Shown here: positions 10,513 through 21,196 of the stretch, in pieces
How the letters are laid out: every line of letters begins with the position of its first letter
How positions within the stretch are numbered: the stretch's first letter is position 1
Assembly (NCBI GenBank): GCA_024639845.1
Contig: JAHEGG010000001.1
Location: 62,001-126,000, forward strand
Source of the DNA: Microbacteriaceae bacterium
GTDB lineage: Bacteria > Actinomycetota > Actinomycetes > Actinomycetales > Microbacteriaceae
Reading direction: 5' to 3'
Length of the DNA stretch: 64,000 nucleotides
Notes under the pieces: generated by a model
What the model was told of the DNA's origin: nothing
The model's input: only the letters and a program-made list of their open reading frames with translations
Databases searched by the model: none
Position numbers and translations under genes: made by a program

Positions 10513-12195
10513 TCAGTGCCTAAGCGCTAATGTCAACTTCGAACCGCCTTGTGATAGTGCCTTCAGCGACCAATTTTGACCACTGACCGTCGAAAAATAC
10601 TTGCTCCCCAGCCCAACTGCCCCGGCGCGCGGCCCGATGCCGTCATCGGTGACCTGAATCACGACGTCATCGGAGAGGCACACCACACTGACAAGAATTG
10701 TGTGAGCCAAGCCGTGCCGAATTGAGTTATTGGCCGCTTCTTCGACGATCCGAACAATGTCACTTCGAGATTCGCAGAGTTGACACATTTGTGAGACTTC
10801 AATTTCGAGATTCGCAAATCCCTGCCATCGTTGCGCGAGGTCGGTCAGGCTCGCCGAAGTTGTAATGGCGGTTAAGGGCTTTTGAAGTAAAGCGAGCATC
10901 GAATCAATTTGTTCAAGTTCTGCCTGGAGGTTTTCTCCCTCACCACGATCCAATTTGAAAGCCAGCAGCAAAAGTTTGTTTTGAACATTGCCATGAATGT
11001 GATTTGCGAGTTCACGGCTGACGAGTTGATTTTTCGTATGAATGACCTCAGCATCTACTCCGAGCTGCACCGCTAACTGCTCTAGCTGCCTTCGAATTTC
11101 AGCCCTGGTCTCCAAAGTGCTCTTGACGAACCCCGTCATAAAACCAGTTTGAGTTATCCAGACAAACATGACGGCAACCGCTACGGCTGTTGGATAGTTC
11201 GCCAGTGTGCCGAACAGCAAATCCGAAACTACGACGACCGCTGTCGCTGTAGCAAAGTTGAACAAGACAAAGTAAGCAGCGGATCCAGCTATCGAAGCCG
11301 GCCTGACTTTACTAGCTGCCCAGTAGGCCAGCCAAATCACTGTTCCGGTGGCCAAAGATCTTAATATTCCCTCGCCCACTCCCGTCTCTTGCAGATACGG
11401 GATAAGTATCCCGGTCGAGACTATCCCCGCAACCGCGGTGCCCGCGAAAGGTCGGTTGAGAACCGCCAACCGTGACAAATTTTTGAACGAGAAGTCTGAC
11501 GCGTTAGATTTTTGTTCCTCCCAAAGCCTCTGAGCTAAGGGGCGAAGTTGCTCGTGAACCACATCTTTCAAAAGAGCTGGGACTCTTGATTCGGAGTTGC
11601 CGCTGAGTTGGTGCTTAACATCTGAAATCGACGATCGGAGTCTGTCGATTTCTAGACGGATTTTTCCTGACTCAAACGTTGCGGAATTGGAAGCTTGACT
11701 TACTCTCTCTGCAACGAGCGCATCGCGTTCGTTTTGAAATCTCTTAAAACTTGCCGCCAGGATGGCTAGTGCTGGAAGAGTCACCAATCCCAAGATGGCA
11801 GCTTGAACAGTTCTCGGCCAGAGCGTGTCAAGATGCGCCTCGGCACCTAGTAACCATGCGAGATAGATGGTGGCCGAACCTTTAGTGGCTCCAATAAACA
11901 AAGCAAATGTCAGAACGGCAAGGATGTTTGCCGGCTTCAGCTTGCGGTTGGTAAATATTCGCCGATCGGCAAAGAGCAAAAGGACCCAGCAGATTGCCAT
12001 GGCAAGAATATTGGCCACAGTCCAAACACCAAGATTAAAAAAACTGAAGTTGTGCAGGTTGGAGAGCAGAGATGTTATCCAGAACGCAGGCAGAAAAAAT
12101 AGATAAACGCGAAAGTTAAATAGTGAAGGACCGGTGACAGCGGAAATCAATTTTCGGATTCTTAACGCGGGCTTCTCGACAACTCCATATGTCAT
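10513..12195 (-). CDS. NarL-type membrane sensor histidine kinase
   Basis: 560 residues. Two blocks of TM helices (about 30-150 and 250-355) flank a cytoplasmic segment with a predicted coiled coil (155-240). The HisKA_3-like region RELANHIHGNVQNKLLLL carries the likely phospho-acceptor H401. The ATPase domain at the C-terminus has an N box (EEAANNSIRHG), a G1 box (VTDDGIGPRAG) and a degenerate lid. The start overlaps the response-regulator stop as ATGA (12192-12195), so the pair is translationally coupled. No extracellular sensor domain of note is visible, so it may sense a membrane or intracellular signal. Confidence 0.9.
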   Translation of the reverse strand: MTYGVVEKPALRIRKLISAVTGPSLFNFRVYLFFLPAFWITSLLSNLHNFSFFNLGVWTVANILAMAICWVLLLFADRRIFTNRKLKPANILAVLTFALFIGATKGSATIYLAWLLGAEAHLDTLWPRTVQAAILGLVTLPALAILAASFKRFQNERDALVAERVSQASNSATFESGKIRLEIDRLRSSISDVKHQLSGNSESRVPALLKDVVHEQLRPLAQRLWEEQKSNASDFSFKNLSRLAVLNRPFAGTAVAGIVSTGILIPYLQETGVGEGILRSLATGTVIWLAYWAASKVRPASIAGSAAYFVLFNFATATAVVVVSDLLFGTLANYPTAVAVAVMFVWITQTGFMTGFVKSTLETRAEIRRQLEQLAVQLGVDAEVIHTKNQLVSRELANHIHGNVQNKLLLLAFKLDRGEGENLQAELEQIDSMLALLQKPLTAITTSASLTDLAQRWQGFANLEIEVSQMCQLCESRSDIVRIVEEAANNSIRHGLAHTILVSVVCLSDDVVIQVTDDGIGPRAGAVGLGSKYFSTVSGQNWSLKALSQGGSKLTLALRH

Positions 12196-12842
12196 TTAAG
12201 CGGTTTACCGATCGACCGAAAGACCACGTTGGCAATGTGGACTCGCTGGTTCACCGACGAATCAAACTTGATGTCTAACGCTTTAGCGATTCGCGAGATA
12301 GAAACTTCCACAGACTTTTCCGTGACGAAACGGGTCTTGGCAATCTCTGCGTTAGACATTCCGCTGGCGACCAACCGGAGTATCTCAATCTGCGAGTCAG
12401 TGAGTTTAGCGAGCGGACTTTGGCGGCCCAATGTGGAATCCTTGCTGCGATTTTCTGAGGCTCTGGTGAGTGCGGCGATCAGAATCTCAACCGAAGTGAC
12501 CGAACCCTTGGTCAGATATTCAACGTTGGGAGGTAGCTCCGAGAATGTGCTGTTGAGCAGCCTTGGGTCATCGAAACTTGTCAAAAATACGATTCCCAGA
12601 TTGGGCAGCAACCGTCTCAAACCGTGAGCTAGGTCGAGACCAGTCGGGCCAAGACCTAGGTGCAAATCAAGAACAACGACATCTAAATGCGGAATGTTCT
12701 TCTTCGCTTCGATAAGTGCGTCGCTTGCCGAACTCGTTTCAAAAGCCACTTCAAAACCGGCAAGCCGAATTGCCGAGACAATGGCCAGGCGCATCAATGA
12801 ATCATCTTCGACCACAGCGATTTGCAGAACCATACCTGACAT
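12192..12842 (-). CDS. LuxR/NarL-family response regulator
   Basis: About 216 residues from ATG 12842. The receiver domain begins LQIAVVEDDSLMRLAIVSAI, with the phospho-acceptor Asp in VVVLDLHLG and the conserved Lys in YLTKGS. The C-terminal LuxR helix-turn-helix is LTDSQIEILRLVASGMSNAEIAKTRFVTEKSVEVSISRI. The frame is open to a TTG at 12872, but those ten extra residues are not family-like; ATG 12833 is an equal candidate. First gene of the two-component operon, divergent from the secreted protein at 12988, which could be a target. Confidence 0.9.
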   Translation of the reverse strand: MSGMVLQIAVVEDDSLMRLAIVSAIRLAGFEVAFETSSASDALIEAKKNIPHLDVVVLDLHLGLGPTGLDLAHGLRRLLPNLGIVFLTSFDDPRLLNSTFSELPPNVEYLTKGSVTSVEILIAALTRASENRSKDSTLGRQSPLAKLTDSQIEILRLVASGMSNAEIAKTRFVTEKSVEVSISRIAKALDIKFDSSVNQRVHIANVVFRSIGKPLK

Positions 12843-12987
12843 TGTTTCATTGCCCGCGGTTATGCACAGCAAAACCCTGCGACCCTGATGGGTTACCCCG
12901 TCAATATGTAACTCGATAGTGGCAAAGCCTGTTCGGTGGCGAGGTTAATACGTAGCCTGTTGCTAGATCACACCTTCGGAGGCATTC

Positions 12988-14475
12988 ATGCGAAACAAAC
13001 TGGCGGCCGTACTTGCAACACTCACTCTGGCGATGGCTTCACTTATCCTTCCCGCTCAGGCGGCTTTTGCCGATGAGCCCGCAGCAGCCGACATCAGCGT
13101 GATTGAACTCAAGGATGCGCTGTGCCAGTTCACAGTGCAAGTTACCTACCCCTTGGATTCGCTCCCCGATGAAGGAAGTCAGGTGCTGAGGATAACTAGC
13201 CCCTCAGGAAACCTCGAAGGAGGAGTCGCTTGGACGACCTTGCAGGGCAAGGGTTCTAGCTACTTCACCCGAACTACATTCAATGGAATTAACCTCTTGA
13301 ATAACCTAAAAGAGAGCGATGCTTGGTTTAACGGGCAAGCGAATTTCAATTCACAATGGTGCGGCATAGACTTCACTCTTGAAGTGACCTATACGCACAA
13401 CGGCATTCCATCTGCAGTTGCCAGCAAAACAATCGTCAGCGAGTCCTACCTGACCAGTGACTACATTTATGCCTGGAAAGAGATCAGCCCCGAGGGCTAT
13501 TGCGAGCTCTACATTGACTTTCATCCTGGGCACCTACCCGATGACGACGGTGTATCCGGAAGAGTCGGCTGGGTCACTTACTCGGAACAGGGGCTAGACC
13601 TTGCGTTCACAGTTCTTAACCCGACTGCCGATGACATAACCTACCGCTTTGCGACCGAAACCGTGGTGGATGCCGAAAGCACAATCATCTCAATGCAGTC
13701 GAGCGGAGCAGTCGACGGCTGCGGTGAAGAAGGCCGAGCGGAGTTTGGTTATGTTTCTTTGGGACAGTCGAACTGGGAGATTGCTGATGTTGCGCCTCTC
13801 CCAATCTGCGGCAAAGGAACCTTCAGTTCCACTGGGCACTATTGGGGTTGGGGTTGCGTGGAAGCCCCGGTTGGATACTACGTCGATGATTACGGCGCTA
13901 AAGCACCGACAATCTGCCCCAACGGTCAGACCACCGAACAGCCAGGTGCCGCTTCCGAGAGGGAGTGTTTTAGCACCGCAGTTCCCACCTTTGACATTCG
14001 ATACTTGTCTGGAACTGGTTTAGCCCCATCCTCGCCGCTGAGTGTCGATCTGGGAGCTTCGTTCACTCTTCCAGCCAATACTTTCAAGCGAACCGGATAC
14101 ACATTCGCCGGATGGTCTGACGGTGCGGTCGTATACGCGCCCGGTTCTACCTATGCGAATGCTGCCGGAGACCTCACTCTATCTGCCACGTGGAAAGTTA
14201 CTCACACAGCCAAACGGCTTAGCGCTCTCAAGGTTCTCAAAGTTGGCGTCACAAAATCGCTCCTGGCGACCTCCGACCAAGGCAAGGCTACTGTTATCAA
14301 AGCTTCTGGCGCGTGCAAGTCGAAGCAGTACACGTTAAAAGGCAAACGGATGCTCAAGATCACGGCTAGCAAGAACTCCGGAGTTTGCACCCTGTCCGTA
14401 TCCTCGCCTGAGACTTCGAAAATTACGGCCCTCAAGACCACGCTAAAGATTCGGGTATCCAAGACAGGCCGATAA
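12988..14475 (+). CDS. Secreted protein with InlB B-repeat
   Basis: 495 residues. Signal peptide 1-28 (basic MRNKL, hydrophobic core, AQAAFA cleavage). Residues about 30-290 form unrecognised beta-rich, Cys-containing segments. Residues about 330-408 match an InlB B-repeat (Listeria-Bacteroides repeat; RTGYTFAGWSDGA, LTLSATWK). The last 85 residues are a Lys-rich Ig-like unit with two Cys spaced as in the C-terminal units of the subtilisin at 18224. A GGAGG ribosome-binding site precedes the ATG. Probably a surface adhesin or cell-wall-associated protein; no LPXTG motif. Confidence 0.8.
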   Translation: MRNKLAAVLATLTLAMASLILPAQAAFADEPAAADISVIELKDALCQFTVQVTYPLDSLPDEGSQVLRITSPSGNLEGGVAWTTLQGKGSSYFTRTTFNGINLLNNLKESDAWFNGQANFNSQWCGIDFTLEVTYTHNGIPSAVASKTIVSESYLTSDYIYAWKEISPEGYCELYIDFHPGHLPDDDGVSGRVGWVTYSEQGLDLAFTVLNPTADDITYRFATETVVDAESTIISMQSSGAVDGCGEEGRAEFGYVSLGQSNWEIADVAPLPICGKGTFSSTGHYWGWGCVEAPVGYYVDDYGAKAPTICPNGQTTEQPGAASERECFSTAVPTFDIRYLSGTGLAPSSPLSVDLGASFTLPANTFKRTGYTFAGWSDGAVVYAPGSTYANAAGDLTLSATWKVTHTAKRLSALKVLKVGVTKSLLATSDQGKATVIKASGACKSKQYTLKGKRMLKITASKNSGVCTLSVSSPETSKITALKTTLKIRVSKTGR

Positions 14476-14685: not shown

Positions 14686-14704
14686 TGGCTATGAATCTGT
14701 TCGT

Positions 14705-14777
14705 GCGCTTGGAGGGACTCGAACCCCCAACCTTCTGATCCGTAGTCAGATGCTCTATCCGTTGAGCTACAAGCGCC
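14705..14777 (-). tRNA. tRNA-Arg (anticodon ACG)
   Basis: 73 nt: acceptor GCGCTTG/CAAGCGC, D-arm GCTC/GAGC, anticodon stem TCTGA/TCAGA with loop CTACGGA, T-arm GGGGG-TTCGAGT-CCCTC, discriminator A. CCA is not encoded. ACG would be deaminated to ICG and read CGU, CGC and CGA codons. Confidence 0.97.
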
Positions 14778-14909: not shown

Positions 14910-15521
14910 ATGAAAAATAGACTGCAAGCAATCGCCTTCGCGCTTGTACTTGGCGCAACCGTTTCGGGATGCGCGCCAATCCACGAACCGGAACTTTCCG
15001 GTGTTATCGATCGCGGCACCGATCTGGCGGTGGCCAGACAGATTGCCTACGCACATGAGCACTATAAAGAACCCAACACTTTAAAGTTCGGCAATCTGGG
15101 TGCTACCGACTGCGTGAATTTCACGAGCCAAACCTTGTTAGCCCGAGGCTGGTCAATGACCCAAGGATGGGGTGTTGAGAAGCTTAATGGAACGTTTGCT
15201 TATACCCGCGCTTGGATTTCATCCACTGGTTTTCGCGACTATCTCGCAGGGCACCCAGAACTGGCTACGGCCGTGAGCTGGGATAACAGAAACTCTGTTC
15301 AGAGTGGTGATGTCGTTCAGTTCGACTGGGATGCCTCCGGCGACCGCGACCACACAGCGATTGTTAGCGGTTTCGAAGAAGATGCCGCCACTGGGCGACG
15401 CACAGTTCTTGTGAGTTCTCATAGTCCTGGGGCTTTTGATTGGCCCATCACTGATGTGCTTGCGGAGAACGACAGCCGCGCCAAAGTTTATTTTTGGCAC
15501 ATCAAGTCGCCGAACGACTGA
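14910..15521 (+). CDS. Lipoprotein with putative amidase domain
   Basis: 203 residues from ATG 14910, which has GGGGGA upstream and begins a good lipoprotein signal (KNRLQAIAFALVLGATVSGC). The mature part resembles the Amidase_6-type NlpC/P60-like fold: ATDCVNFTSQTLLARGW supplies the probable catalytic Cys, DRDHTAIVSGFEE the His, and VSSHSPG follows. This family cleaves peptide or amide bonds, often in cell-wall material. The frame extends upstream to 14841, but that extension would bury the signal peptide. Confidence 0.82.
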   Translation: MKNRLQAIAFALVLGATVSGCAPIHEPELSGVIDRGTDLAVARQIAYAHEHYKEPNTLKFGNLGATDCVNFTSQTLLARGWSMTQGWGVEKLNGTFAYTRAWISSTGFRDYLAGHPELATAVSWDNRNSVQSGDVVQFDWDASGDRDHTAIVSGFEEDAATGRRTVLVSSHSPGAFDWPITDVLAENDSRAKVYFWHIKSPND

Positions 15522-15542: not shown

Positions 15543-15662
15543 CTACTCTCCGCAGGTGCAGAGTTGCTCTTCTGGCACTCCAGCCAAAGCCTCTTCAACG
15601 TGCTGACCGCAACCGGCCCAGGTTACTTTGCCGCAAGCATCACACAGGGTTTGTGCACACAT
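15543..15662 (-). CDS. Tiny Cys-rich protein (CxxC..GCGQHV family), copy 2
   Basis: 39 residues. Cys at 2, 7, 10, 18, 35 and 37; core CDACGKVTWAGCGQHV, then GVPEEQLCTCG. It aligns along its whole length with the 55-residue protein just upstream (shared C-x2-CGK-x-TW-x-GCGQHV and GVP), so the two are tandem paralogues. GGAG precedes the ATG, and the start lies 9 bp after the stop of copy 1. The CxxC and GCGQH groups suggest a metal or persulfide-binding site. I recall similar short proteins in bacteria and fungi, without an assigned role. Confidence 0.8.
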   Translation of the reverse strand: MCAQTLCDACGKVTWAGCGQHVEEALAGVPEEQLCTCGE

Positions 15663-15671
15663 TTGATCTCC

Positions 15672-15839
15672 TTATTTCTTTCCGAAGAGGCGAGCGAAAA
15701 ATCCTGGTTCTTTCGGATCATTCGCATGGCCTTGGCATTGCTGGCTCTTTGGCACTCCACGCATCACATCATTGACATGCTGACCGCAGCCCGTCCAAGT
15801 TGCCTTGCCACATTTGCGGCAATTGATTTTCTGACACAT
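15672..15839 (-). CDS. Tiny Cys-rich protein (CxxC..GCGQHV family), copy 1
   Basis: 55 residues. Core CRKCGKATWTGCGQHV near the N-terminus, then GVPKSQQCQGH, and a short amphipathic tail FFARLFGKK that could touch the membrane. Its ATG directly follows the TAA of the rhodanese lipoprotein, so it must be read from that mRNA. Its place in a transcript starting at a CstR-like operator ties it to sulfur or metal stress. No catalytic fold is expected at this size; a metal-binding or thiol-carrier role is an inference. Confidence 0.82.
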   Translation of the reverse strand: MCQKINCRKCGKATWTGCGQHVNDVMRGVPKSQQCQGHANDPKEPGFFARLFGKK

Positions 15840-16208
15840 TTACTGCACCACTTTCATTCCGGTCATGCTTGAGGCATCTGCGACGCTTCCTGCATTTATT
15901 AGTTCGCCGGTGAATCCGGCATTTTTCATGTAGTCGATTGCTTGGCCAGCCCGATTACCCGAGCGACAGTAGACGATGTAGTTGGCGGCATGATCGAGCT
16001 GGTCAATCTCTGCCGCAAAGCTAGCGCTCTTAATGTCTATGTTCACCGCGCCGTCTAGGTGACCCGAGGCCCACTCTTCTGCTGTGCGAACATCGATAAC
16101 GGCTGCGTAGGCGCTCATGTCCTTCGCTGCTGGTGCACAGGCGGTCAAAGCACTGACTGCGAAAACGGCAATAAACACGGATGCTATAAACCTGATTAGT
16201 TTCGTCAA
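15840..16208 (-). CDS. Rhodanese-domain lipoprotein
   Basis: 122 residues from a TTG start with AAAGGAAG upstream. Lipoprotein signal with lipobox LTAC (C24); rhodanese domain about residues 33-120 with VIDVRTAEEWASGHLDGAVNID and the active-site loop CRSGNRAGQA (C81). It should sit on the outer face of the membrane and move or reduce sulfane sulfur there. First gene of a three-gene minus-strand run with the two tiny Cys-rich proteins. Its promoter shares the palindrome at 16224-16243 with the divergent repressor. Confidence 0.92.
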   Translation of the reverse strand: MTKLIRFIASVFIAVFAVSALTACAPAAKDMSAYAAVIDVRTAEEWASGHLDGAVNIDIKSASFAAEIDQLDHAANYIVYCRSGNRAGQAIDYMKNAGFTGELINAGSVADASSMTGMKVVQ

Positions 16209-16223
16209 GACGAGCTTCCTTTC

Positions 16224-16243
16224 GTATACCCCCTAGGGTATAC
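16224..16243. promoter_or_regulatory. CsoR/CstR-type operator palindrome
   Basis: GTATACCCCCTAGGGTATAC, an almost perfect inverted repeat with the G/C tract and AT flanks typical of CsoR-family operators. It overlaps the plus-strand -10 box of the repressor gene (TATACT, 16239-16244) and a TATACG box on the minus strand for the rhodanese gene, so binding would silence both. Confidence 0.8.
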
Positions 16244-16511: not shown

Positions 16512-18179
16512 ATGAAGGTGATCATCATCGGTGGCGTGGCTGCCGGAATGTCTGCTGCCGCTCGCCTACGTCGGCTTGACGAAAGCGCTCAAATCACGGT
16601 TTACGAAATGAGCGACCACGTTAGTTATGCAAACTGCGGGCTGCCTTATTTTGTGAGCGACGTTATCTCGAATCGCGAAGCCCTACTGCTTCAAAACCCA
16701 ACCTCACTCTGGAATCGATTTCGCATTCGAGTCAAGGTCAAACACATGGTTACGGCCATCCACCGCGACTCAAAAACCGTGACGGTGACAAACCTCTCGA
16801 CCGGCGCTACCGAAACCGACGAATACGACAAGCTAGTGATTGCAACCGGCGCAAAGCCACGCGTGCTCGATGTTCCTGGAATTGAACGAGCGCTCTGGCT
16901 CAGAAATGTGTCTGATGCAGACAGAGTCAAGGCCGCGGTCAAAGCCGCGACAGACAAGTCGGTGGCGATACTCGGTGCTGGATTTGTAGGCATCGAGTTG
17001 GCCGAAAATCTGCGGCATCTAGGTTTGCCGGTAACCACGATTCAACGTGGGCCAAGCATCCTGAGTCAGTTCGATCGCGAAATGATCGCCCCTCTACAGT
17101 CCACCCTCGAAAAACACGGCGTGCAAATCCTGTTGAATGCCGAAGTCGATCACATCACCGAGCAACATGTGGTTCTGAAAGACGGCCGAAGAATAGATGC
17201 CGGTTTGGTTTTCACGGCGGTCGGGGTCGAACCAGACAATTCGCTAGCCAAGGATGCCGGACTCAAGATCGGCAGCACAGGAGGCTTGTGGGTTGATGAT
17301 CAGCAGCGCACGAGTGATCCAGACATTTTCGCCGCCGGAGATGCTGTTGAAAAGCACGGCGAACTCACAGGCAATCAGACGCTGGTGCCGTTGGCAAACC
17401 TTGCCAACCGCCACGGTCGACTAATCGCAGACGTGATTGTCGGCATTGATACCAAAGCGCACCCGGTGACCGGCACCGTAATACTCGGTGCATTCGGTCA
17501 CGCAGTGGCCATCACAGGTTTGAACGAAAAAACAGCGACGGCTGCGCAAATCGCGCACCAGATCATCCACGTGCATCCGAACAATCACGCTGGCTATTAC
17601 CCAGGTGCTACGCGGCTGTCGCTAAAGGTTTTGTTCGAGCCTGGTTCGGGAAAGATTCTCGGCGCGCAGGCCTACGGCGAAGACGGTGTTGATAAACGCA
17701 TCGATGTAATCGCCACAGCGATTCGCGCAAACCTAACCATCGAAGACTTGATGGACTTAGAGCTCGCCTATGCCCCCCAGTTTGGATCGGCCAAGGATGC
17801 CGTAAACATCGCTGGTTATGTTGGCAACAACGTGTTGACCGGCATGACGCCGACGCTTCAATGGCACGAACTGGAAACCGCCCGAGCCAACGGAGCTCAG
17901 ATTGTCGATGTGCGTTCTGCGTCAGAACACGGAAACGGGCACATCCCCGGCACCCTGAATGTGCCTGTTGAAGAACTTCGCGACCGGCTCGAAGAAATTC
18001 AAACCTCGGATGTTGTGGTGTACTGCCAGGTTGGGCAACGCGGGCACATCGCGACACAAATTCTGAAGGCGAATGGCGCAAAGGTGCGCAATCTCGACGG
18101 AGGTTATTTGACGTGGGGCACGGGAGTGGCGTCACGGCCCGAAGTTGGCGCAAAACCGCAGCTAACCAAGACTTCCTAA
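16512..18179 (+). CDS. CoA-disulfide/persulfide reductase fused to rhodanese
   Basis: 555 residues. Residues 1-450 are a CoA-disulfide reductase of the pyridine-nucleotide disulfide reductase family: FAD motif VIIIGGVAAGMSAA, single redox Cys C42 in SYANCGLPYF, NAD motif VAILGAGFVGIELAENL, and FAAGDAV. Residues about 460-540 form a C-terminal rhodanese domain with active Cys C505 in VVYCQVGQRGHIA. This CDR-RHD architecture is known as an NAD(P)H-dependent persulfide reductase. Starts 2 bp after the repressor stop, so it is co-transcribed and controlled by it. Confidence 0.95.
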   Translation: MKVIIIGGVAAGMSAAARLRRLDESAQITVYEMSDHVSYANCGLPYFVSDVISNREALLLQNPTSLWNRFRIRVKVKHMVTAIHRDSKTVTVTNLSTGATETDEYDKLVIATGAKPRVLDVPGIERALWLRNVSDADRVKAAVKAATDKSVAILGAGFVGIELAENLRHLGLPVTTIQRGPSILSQFDREMIAPLQSTLEKHGVQILLNAEVDHITEQHVVLKDGRRIDAGLVFTAVGVEPDNSLAKDAGLKIGSTGGLWVDDQQRTSDPDIFAAGDAVEKHGELTGNQTLVPLANLANRHGRLIADVIVGIDTKAHPVTGTVILGAFGHAVAITGLNEKTATAAQIAHQIIHVHPNNHAGYYPGATRLSLKVLFEPGSGKILGAQAYGEDGVDKRIDVIATAIRANLTIEDLMDLELAYAPQFGSAKDAVNIAGYVGNNVLTGMTPTLQWHELETARANGAQIVDVRSASEHGNGHIPGTLNVPVEELRDRLEEIQTSDVVVYCQVGQRGHIATQILKANGAKVRNLDGGYLTWGTGVASRPEVGAKPQLTKTS

Positions 18180-18223: not shown

Positions 18224-21196
18224 ATGCATCCGCGCAAGTTTGCAGCTCTGGTGGTGACCACCGTCGCGATCATTTCATCGCTTGGCCAGTTGCCTTCAGT
18301 TGCGCTTGGCGCCGAAATAAACCCCACAACCAGCACATCAGTCTCCGCGCCTCCCAGGGCCAAAAACGGTTGGGCATATGACATGGTGCGCGTTGACGAA
18401 GCTCACGCGCTCGGATACACGGGAGCTGGCATCCGTGTGGCCATTCTCGACAACGGCATCGACCCTAGAGCAACAGGTATCACCGGAAAGGTGGTAGCGA
18501 GTTTTGACGCGGTGCACGCCGTGAACGGGCAGCAAGAACACGGAACCGCGACGGCTGGAATCGTGGCCGCCGAAACTAACTCGGAGGCCGGTATTGGCGG
18601 GGTAGCGCCTGACGTTGAAATTTTGAACGTCAAGGTTTGCACGCTCAGCAACTGTCGCACCGAAGCGATGATTGCTGGCCTGAGGTGGGCGATTGATAAC
18701 GGTGCCGACATCATCAGCATGAGCATTGGTGGGCCAGGCACAGACGGTGCGGTTGCCGCTTTGATTCGAGATGCCGTCGACGCTGGCATCGTTGTAGTGG
18801 CAGCGGCCGGAAACAGCGCGTGCTTTGCTACTTGGGAATCACAAGAAGGCAAGAAGAGCCGCAACTGCACGCAAACATCGCTGTCGCGCAATTTTCCAGG
18901 CTCATACCCCACCGACGGAGTTATCACCGTTGGCGCCGTCGACCGCGAGCGCAAGCGCGCAAGTTATTCGAGTTACAACGCGCAAGTGGATGTCTCGGCT
19001 CCAGGCACCGGTGTGTCAACCACTTTTCCTTGGGGGCCTAACGCCGATTTTGGTGGCACATCGGCGGCCACCCCGGTGGTTGCGGGCGTGGCGGCATTAG
19101 TTATGGAAGCAGCGCCAAGTCTGACCCCCGCTCAAGTTCAATCGGTGATTCAACTGAGCGCAGCTGAGGCCGAGAATTCGCCACCAGAGGTTTGGGACTC
19201 CTGTGTGTGGAATGCCGAGGCGGTGAAGTGGGAATGCGTCAATCTGAGCCCGGCAAAGTGGCCGGCGCGCTTCTACACAGGCGCGGGTGTAGTCGATGCG
19301 GTTGCAGCGGTAACTCTCGCCCGCGAGATCGAGGCGCAGATTCAAGGTGCAGCGGTTGGATCGCCCGCAGTGACCGAGACTGACGCGACTCTAGCTCTCG
19401 ACTGGTCTGCGTCAGGGCTAGGGGCAGGCCCCTACAAAGTAAGCCTCGATGGCGAAGAGGTTGCACAAGCCAACGGCACATCGATTGTGCTCAACGACCT
19501 GATCAACGAGGCCACCTACTCGGTGCGTGTGAGTGACGCATCCGGCAAACTCACCCTGCCGGTTCTGGCTAGGCCAAGTGACGCGGTTGCGGTGCCGGCT
19601 TTTCACATGACCAACCTGCGTGCCGAACGAGACGGTATGTATCCGACCTTCGCCGAAGCGCTGCCGGGCAACGGCTACGGCGCTTTGCTGCTTTCAGACG
19701 GCATCCGTGTTTCTTGCAGCGAAACCCAGTGTGACTACAGCATGCCCGCGGGAACAGTGACGGCACGCTACGTTTCAATCGACAGTCTCGGGCGCCTAAG
19801 TGAACCATCGCAAGAGATAAGTGTCACATCCACCGCCCAATTTGGTGCCCCGCAAAACATCGTGATCAGCGACATCACTGCGACAAGCGCAAAAGCCAGC
19901 TGGGATGCGGTTGCGGGGGCTGAGCATTACTACTACTACGACGCTGGCGCTGGTGAGTGGAAGGTCACAACCGAGACAACAGTGGTCATGGAGGGTATGA
20001 AAACCGCTTTGCCCAGCACTTTCAGAGTGGCGGTTAGTGCTCCACACGGTTCGCCAATTGGCGTTTGGAGCCCTACGCACTGGTATTACGCCTTGCCTCC
20101 AGAGCTGCCAGCCCTCACCGGTCTCTCGGTCAAGAACATCTCTGCAAAAGAAGTCGCCATCAGCTTCACAAAAAATGAAGATGCCGAGCGAATCGCCTAT
20201 TTCAGGTCAGACGGCAAGGTTAACTACCTGCCCGCATCGTCACCCGAGATTGTCGACCGATTCGACGAATACGACGCCGGAAAAACCTACAGCTACTTTT
20301 TCGTTCAGCTTGATGACATGCAATACGGCACTCAATACGGCGTTGTTTCGCCGGCATTCACCATAACTGTGCCATTGCCGAAAAAAGTGGATACTCTAGC
20401 CTCCGACCTCACCAACGAACCCTTGCAATACGAAACCGAGCGTGAGTTCACCGGCACCAGCACATCTGGCAAAAAGGTCTGGTGGTGGGTTGAAGGCCCC
20501 TGTCAGCTGGTCAATCAGGATGGGCCAAAGGTGAAGGTTCGAGCAAACGGCATTGGGGCTGATTGCCTTGTAAAAGGCAACACGCAAGAAGACGAAATTT
20601 GGGACAGAGGCTACATAGAGATTCGGATTCCGTTGATCAAAAAGACTGAAACGCTCTCTCTAACGACCGGCGCATCAAATGGTCTTGCCTACGCATCCGA
20701 AACTCAGATAACTGCCACGGGCAACTCGAATCGGCCGATTAGTTGGTTTATTGACGGCAACTGCAGGCTTATTGAGACACAAGACCGTTGGGCGCGAGTG
20801 AGATCAAATGACGGCCAGGGTGTCTGCAAAGTTGAAGCCAGGCTCTATGAAGACCCCTGGTTTAGCGGTGCCAGAGCGACTCTAGATCAGGGCATGGTTG
20901 TTCGCACAGACAAGTTGACCATGTCGGCAAGCAAGCAAATTTATAACCGTCGAACGATCGCCTTGCGTTATGACACCGCTAGCGGTCGCTGGCCAGAATT
21001 CAAAACCACCGGAATGTGTCGAATAGTGAAGGTAACCCAGACTCACGTGCTGATTGCCTCGCGATTCACGTTCGGCTCGTGCCTGATTACGGCGACTCTG
21101 AAGGCAACCCGCGCCGAAACCGGCTCAGAAACCACAACTCGCGTTGCTCTTTTGAAGCACAAGCAAAGAGCTGAAGTCGACTCCCTGAACGACTAA
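18224..21196 (+). CDS. Large secreted subtilisin-like protease (S8)
   Basis: 991 residues from ATG 18224 (GAGGAG upstream). Signal peptide about 1-30. Catalytic domain about 45-390 with D76 (VAILDNGID), H107 (EHGTATAGIV), oxyanion N197 (AAGNSA) and S280 (GGTSAATPVVAGVAAL). Then fibronectin III-like and other beta domains (about 400-740) and, near the C-terminus, three repeated Ig-like units each with one Cys pair (about 745-985). No cell-wall anchor is visible, so it may be released or bound non-covalently. The frame is open to 18113, but that would overlap the persulfide reductase. Confidence 0.93.
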   Translation: MHPRKFAALVVTTVAIISSLGQLPSVALGAEINPTTSTSVSAPPRAKNGWAYDMVRVDEAHALGYTGAGIRVAILDNGIDPRATGITGKVVASFDAVHAVNGQQEHGTATAGIVAAETNSEAGIGGVAPDVEILNVKVCTLSNCRTEAMIAGLRWAIDNGADIISMSIGGPGTDGAVAALIRDAVDAGIVVVAAAGNSACFATWESQEGKKSRNCTQTSLSRNFPGSYPTDGVITVGAVDRERKRASYSSYNAQVDVSAPGTGVSTTFPWGPNADFGGTSAATPVVAGVAALVMEAAPSLTPAQVQSVIQLSAAEAENSPPEVWDSCVWNAEAVKWECVNLSPAKWPARFYTGAGVVDAVAAVTLAREIEAQIQGAAVGSPAVTETDATLALDWSASGLGAGPYKVSLDGEEVAQANGTSIVLNDLINEATYSVRVSDASGKLTLPVLARPSDAVAVPAFHMTNLRAERDGMYPTFAEALPGNGYGALLLSDGIRVSCSETQCDYSMPAGTVTARYVSIDSLGRLSEPSQEISVTSTAQFGAPQNIVISDITATSAKASWDAVAGAEHYYYYDAGAGEWKVTTETTVVMEGMKTALPSTFRVAVSAPHGSPIGVWSPTHWYYALPPELPALTGLSVKNISAKEVAISFTKNEDAERIAYFRSDGKVNYLPASSPEIVDRFDEYDAGKTYSYFFVQLDDMQYGTQYGVVSPAFTITVPLPKKVDTLASDLTNEPLQYETEREFTGTSTSGKKVWWWVEGPCQLVNQDGPKVKVRANGIGADCLVKGNTQEDEIWDRGYIEIRIPLIKKTETLSLTTGASNGLAYASETQITATGNSNRPISWFIDGNCRLIETQDRWARVRSNDGQGVCKVEARLYEDPWFSGARATLDQGMVVRTDKLTMSASKQIYNRRTIALRYDTASGRWPEFKTTGMCRIVKVTQTHVLIASRFTFGSCLITATLKATRAETGSETTTRVALLKHKQRAEVDSLND

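Follow-up and report, generated by a model that had tools for sequence, protein, structure and literature searches.

What do two cysteine-rich proteins of 55 and 39 residues do in a sulfur operon? The question is raised by a locus in a stretch of 64,000 nucleotides from a Microbacteriaceae bacterium, hereafter the window, in which two such proteins are encoded behind a rhodanese and share a single operator with a repressor of the CstR type. The answer developed below is that they probably handle zinc and sulfur as part of the cell's defence against reactive sulfur.

Organisation of the locus and authenticity of the small genes

The features of the locus, in window coordinates, are:

15543-15662 (-): short form, 39 aa, MCAQTLCDACGKVTWAGCGQHVEEALAGVPEEQLCTCGE; a tail-less Cys/His mini-protein with a C-x-C end
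15672-15839 (-): long form, 55 aa, MCQKINCRKCGKATWTGCGQHVNDVMRGVPKSQQCQGHANDPKEPGFFARLFGKK; shares the core of the short form, with C-x2-H replacing C-x-C and a C-terminal tail added
15675-15704 (-): codons for GFFARLFGKK, the amphipathic C-terminal tail of the long form; MinD-like in look, putatively membrane-targeting
15840-16208 (-): lipoprotein with a rhodanese domain and the lipobox LTAC, translated from a TTG start; opens the minus-strand arm
16226-16241 (strand.): operator ATACCCCCTAGGGTAT, between the divergent arms; matches ATACCn6GGTAT of ScCsoR (PMC7533328)
16252-16509 (+): CstR-type repressor; PF02583, 77 bits; Cys35 and Cys64, with Gly60 where CsoR has its copper-ligand His
16512-18179 (+): CoA-disulfide/CoA-persulfide-reductase-like flavoprotein with a C-terminal rhodanese domain; Pyr_redox_2, Pyr_redox_dim and Rhodanese

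A sequence-only reading of this DNA had described two small genes of 55 and 39 codons with a common core motif behind an exported rhodanese, and we recovered their reading frames, sizes, order and motif (C-x2-CGK-x-TW-x-GCGQHV...GVP in both proteins). It had also described the spacing as gapless. This is true of the first junction, where the rhodanese gene ends at 15840 and the start of the 55-aa gene follows immediately at 15839, but not of the second, since the 39-aa gene starts 9 nt past the stop of the 55-aa gene, behind a good ribosome site of the AAGGAG type (AAGGAGATCAA). These three genes form the minus arm, which diverges from the genes for CstR and the fusion of a CoA-disulfide reductase (CoADR) with rhodanese. 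The 43 bases between the arms contain a single operator, as had been proposed for the head of the set, and this is the sole TACCCNNNNGGGTA site in the 1.4 Mb genome. The flavoprotein scored 451.6 bits against TIGR03385, under the equivalog cut-off of 578.8. The sulfur operon is flanked by genes for a secreted repeat protein (12988-14475), a lipoprotein-like Amidase_6 protein (14910-15521) and a secreted subtilase (18224-21196). The window also holds a tRNA-Arg (acg) at 14703-14776(-) and, at 10513-12872, genes for a HATPase_c histidine-kinase-like protein and a LuxR-type response regulator that overlap by a few bases.

Judged by their sequences, the small proteins belong to an actinobacterial family of Cys/His proteins of about 37-63 aa that has no name and is strongly conserved. 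Protein searches found members in 92 of 200 Microbacteriaceae genomes, the family profile matched 36 of 296 genomes sampled from the phylum Actinomycetota, and at least 591 relatives emerged when each species was represented by a single genome. Searches of Pfam, NCBIfam, PHROGs and PADLOC gave nothing above a curated cut-off, the best sub-cut-off Pfam scores being 13.5 bits for FeS (cut-off 23) and 13.4 for HMA (24.8). Metallothionein models were absent from the matches of the family search, the PDB sequence search gave no match for the long form and one chance-level row for the profile (E 0.57), and a literature search with family motif strings returned no relevant paper.

Family members also occur on plasmids of Rhodococcus, Clavibacter, Curtobacterium and Arthrobacter, near the same sulfur partners; across all phyla, the plasmid matches listed were all actinobacterial except for one chance match in Sphingomonas (E 0.8). 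Of the small-gene copies on plasmids, most (for example NZ_CP077420.1 129518-129682 and NZ_CP088077.1 62953-63114) have no annotated feature beneath the match in the PLSDB gene table, which is incomplete, and the neighbouring sulfur genes are annotated there. A further member lies on an unverified 'Bacteriophage sp.' faecal scaffold (MT835623.1 19139-19300; L179), which is probably bacterial DNA, the member then not being a phage gene.

Genes as short as these could be chance open reading frames or encode non-functional peptides; their tiny size, and the sparse annotation of the plasmid copies in that incomplete table, would fit such a reading. However, pooled differences among close relatives at codon positions 1/2/3 amounted to 353/194/1546 in the long gene and 347/253/823 in the short one, with dN of about 0.1 and 0.25, respectively, and dS saturated or above 1.2. 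Because third-position changes dominate and dN is far below dS, both frames, on whose conservation the sequence-only reading had staked its case, are real, and the family is under strong purifying selection. The hundreds of homologs, the ribosome site and the invariant ligands described below also count against chance frames; the codon pattern refutes them, and the likelihood that we leave to this reading is negligible.

The pair had further been taken for a duplication. The two genes are indeed paralogs, but not recent ones: a tree built on the tail-less core splits long from short in 116 of 117 members (support 0.79), so the pair dates from an old duplication and a recent tandem event is rejected. 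One locus (L085) carries three family members in 12 kb, together with two rhodaneses, PDO, DsrE, TauE, thioredoxin and two CstR genes.

Association with the CstR operator and with sulfur genes

The assignment of the pair to a persulfide (CstR) regulon, for which a tabulation of neighbours across genomes had been suggested, holds across many genera. The tabulation covers the 80 loci with the closest matches to the small proteins, which are mostly from Micrococcales and are not independent. A CsoR/CstR-type operator was present in 77 of these 80 best-matching loci and absent from 400 kb of random Microbacteriaceae DNA; the exact ATACCn6GGTAT occurred in 69 of the loci and in 0 of 20 controls. 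Within 2.5 kb, the same 80 loci contained genes for CstR (52), CoADR (40), rhodanese (38) and thioredoxin (20), all missing from the controls; likewise, persulfide dioxygenase occurred in 9 and TauE in 8 of the 80, and in none of the controls. Seventeen of the 80 had no sulfur gene within 2.5 kb and, in 16 of these 17, the small gene is itself preceded by the operator at a distance of 41-152 bp. With the operator right upstream and no sulfur gene near, the small gene is therefore a one-gene unit in those loci.

A similar picture emerged from the 200 Microbacteriaceae genomes, in which the small protein was found in 66 of 77 genomes carrying CoADR versus 26 of 123 others (Fisher p 5e-20, relatedness uncorrected). 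The mean number of strict operators was 3.30 in genomes that have the family and 1.19 in those that lack it, the corresponding figures for a reversed control pattern being 2.15 and 1.72.

Since the operator of copper-type CsoR is similar, finding the site is not in itself proof of the signal. In an alignment of 59 CstR rows, the sensor Cys is present in all and the second Cys in 58, the remaining row being gapped there, and no row has a His at the copper-ligand position of CsoR. A copper (CsoR) regulon is rejected, the neighbouring regulators being of the CstR type without this His. The small proteins of Actinomycetes thus almost certainly belong, on this genomic evidence, to the CstR (sulfane-sulfur) regulon. 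In seven loci (L053, L056, L071, L073, L091, L093 and L112) a thioredoxin gene comes immediately after the small gene or genes, in the same orientation, and a thioredoxin under CstR control may there be part of the same unit as the small gene.

Among deep-branching members from elsewhere in the phylum, an operator was found within 700 bp in 6 of the 27 listed, and CstR or sulfur genes in about 6 of 20 wider neighbourhoods, the rest lying beside varied genes; one such member is near a gene for an MgtE-type transporter. Sulfur control thus applies to only some family members and, since deep members often lack a sulfur context, the ancestral role may not be sulfur-specific and was perhaps broader.

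Conserved residues, predicted fold and tail

Seven ligand positions are chemically invariant in the small proteins: C2, C7, C10, C18, H21, C35, and C37 or H38. In a 62-row alignment the invariant residues are C2, C7, C10, W15, G17, C18, G19, H21 and C35; the start codon stands directly ahead of C2 in all 177 genuine members. After C35 comes x-C or x-x-H in virtually every one of 174 sequences, and an exchange of C-x-C for C-x2-H is typical of metal ligands. With seven invariant Cys/His, binding of metal or persulfide is plausible, and this number of ligands suggests one or two metals at most; that the proteins bind metal we consider probable.

AlphaFold models of the two forms were of moderate confidence (pLDDT 78 and 81, pTM 0.50 and 0.45). 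Both contain a hairpin formed by residues 3-6 and 13-16, which bears a C7-x2-C10 knuckle, and a short helix after C18-x2-H21. A fold search against the PDB gave no significant match, and no VIA-align Z of 2 or more.

A C-terminal tail of the GFFARLFG type was found in 118 of the 132 members of 51 aa or more. Its hydrophobic moment is 0.40, versus 0.48 for the MinD tail. A viral scan returned four matches, all to the tail alone and in unrelated proteins; GFFARLFGK occurs in these unrelated viral-contig proteins, in two of them (L001, L004) at the very C-terminus. The string looks like a recurrent C-terminal amphipathic membrane-binding module, and we infer that the tail of the long form would bind membrane.

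Possible roles and known counterparts

The sequence-only reading had proposed that the small proteins are partners of the exported rhodanese, which would accord with the directly co-transcribed arrangement in the window and its nearest relatives. This proposal fared badly. The rhodanese is a lipoprotein with an LTAC lipobox and presumably lies outside, whereas the small proteins start with MC and have no signal, placing the two on opposite predicted sides of the membrane, so that the small proteins cannot readily serve the rhodanese. Moreover, no rhodanese is present within 2.5 kb in 42 of the 80 best-matching loci, and we regard a partnership as highly improbable. An adaptor would be another role for the tail: the core would bind the CoADR-rhodanese or another enzyme, the long form would bring it to the membrane, and the short form would compete with it as a soluble antagonist. 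This would suit the MinD-like GFFARLFGKK tail and its prevalence among the longer members, as well as the unrelated viral-contig proteins that end in the same string and the co-occurrence of long and short forms as old paralogs. However, no partner was identified, no fusion protein was seen among the loci inspected, and the 17 best-matching loci without a nearby sulfur gene also argue against this role, which seems quite unlikely.

A metal buffer or chaperone is a further candidate role. It would hold zinc (or copper) stripped or precipitated by sulfide or persulfides and return the metal, with no handling of sulfur. The seven invariant Cys/His and the ligand-like swap of C-x-C for C-x2-H are consistent with such a function, as are the deep-branching members in non-sulfur settings, including the one near the transporter gene. 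Yet the regulators at these loci are of the CstR type, without the copper-ligand His of CsoR and, among the gene types tested in the 80 best-matching loci (metal transporters not being among these types), the neighbours are persulfide enzymes and thioredoxin; a purely metal-directed role is in our estimate rather unlikely. The constant thiolate ligands, the cytoplasmic location and the sulfane-sulfur switch together favour a zinc mini-domain with a sulfane-sulfur site. Hence the best explanation overall, to which we give an even chance, is that these are CstR-regulated zinc-thiolate mini-proteins that buffer or relay sulfane sulfur; for such buffering or relay as their main role the chances appear somewhat below even.

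In such a zinc-thiolate relay, persulfides or polysulfides would modify CstR and release it from the single operator, allowing transcription of both arms. One arm would yield CstR and the CoA-persulfide reductase, and the other the rhodanese lipoprotein and the two small proteins. Each small protein would fold round zinc, probably held by the C7-x2-C10 knuckle and by C18-x2-H21 at the start of the helix. The remaining ligands, C2 (which would become N-terminal after Met removal), C35 and C37/H38, could form a second metal site or a reactive-thiol site, which would pick up sulfane sulfur and hand it to the reductase or rhodanese, or to thioredoxin, in a manner akin to a persulfide-loaded metallothionein. 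The long form would act at the inner face of the membrane via its amphipathic tail, and the short form in solution. A bolder and unlikely version of the idea is that the family represents a novel class of sulfane-sulfur carrier that is genetically encoded, i.e. a zinc mini-protein with a persulfide site made of Cys2 (thiolate and free amine), C35 and C37/H38, which would have one paralog at the membrane and one soluble and would be the core CstR target in Actinobacteria.

Several known proteins resemble parts of this picture. YacG of E. coli (PDB 1lv3) has a similar CxxCGK...W start and helix-side ligands; Foldseek gave only a weak row (E 9.4, probability 0.02) and Pfam no match, so that YacG is not a relative by the tests run. 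The membrane-targeting sequence of MinD is likewise C-terminal and amphipathic, with a GF[FL]xRLFG pattern like that of the long-form tail, for which membrane binding is putative; the remainder of MinD is unrelated. Metallothionein-3 binds sulfane sulfur via C-S-S-Zn and is recycled by thioredoxin (PMC12618007). Like the small proteins it is small and Cys-rich, and its recycling has a parallel in the thioredoxin genes counted near the best-matching loci. However, it holds seven zinc ions, far above the capacity of seven ligands, and the searches gave no sequence link between it and the small proteins.

At the level of regulation, Streptomyces coelicolor ScCsoR is a sulfane-sulfur sensor whose site was mapped as ATACCn6GGTAT and which controls a persulfide dioxygenase (ScPDO), a rhodanese and a sulfite transporter (PMC7533328). 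This circuit shares with the window the operator, the sensor class and an actinobacterial host, and genes for a persulfide dioxygenase and TauE likewise lie next to some members of the small-protein family; in contrast to the window, it comprises four genes and was described without a small protein (PMC7533328). The small-protein family appears to be a core member of the CstR regulon in Actinomycetes that went unreported in the literature searched. Although the libraries searched contain no model for it, few features recur as constantly behind the sulfane-sulfur operator of many Actinomycetes as this family, which forms a single-gene unit in some genomes.

The closest match in gene content is the cst-like operon. 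In Enterococcus faecalis this comprises CstR, rhodaneses and the CoA persulfide reductase CoAPR; the passages on this operon name RhdA, RhdB and CoaP and no small Cys proteins (PMC9405070). Features common to the window and the cst-like operon of E. faecalis and Staphylococcus aureus are a two-Cys CstR-type repressor, a CoADR-rhodanese fusion, a rhodanese and shared regulation. The window indeed contains a two-Cys CsoR-family repressor without the copper-ligand His, a CoADR-rhodanese fusion and an operator of the sulfane-sulfur-sensor type, the features that mark a cst-like operon. Its operon is a variant of this known kind that, unlike the one in E. faecalis, is arranged divergently round one operator and has a lipoprotein as its rhodanese.
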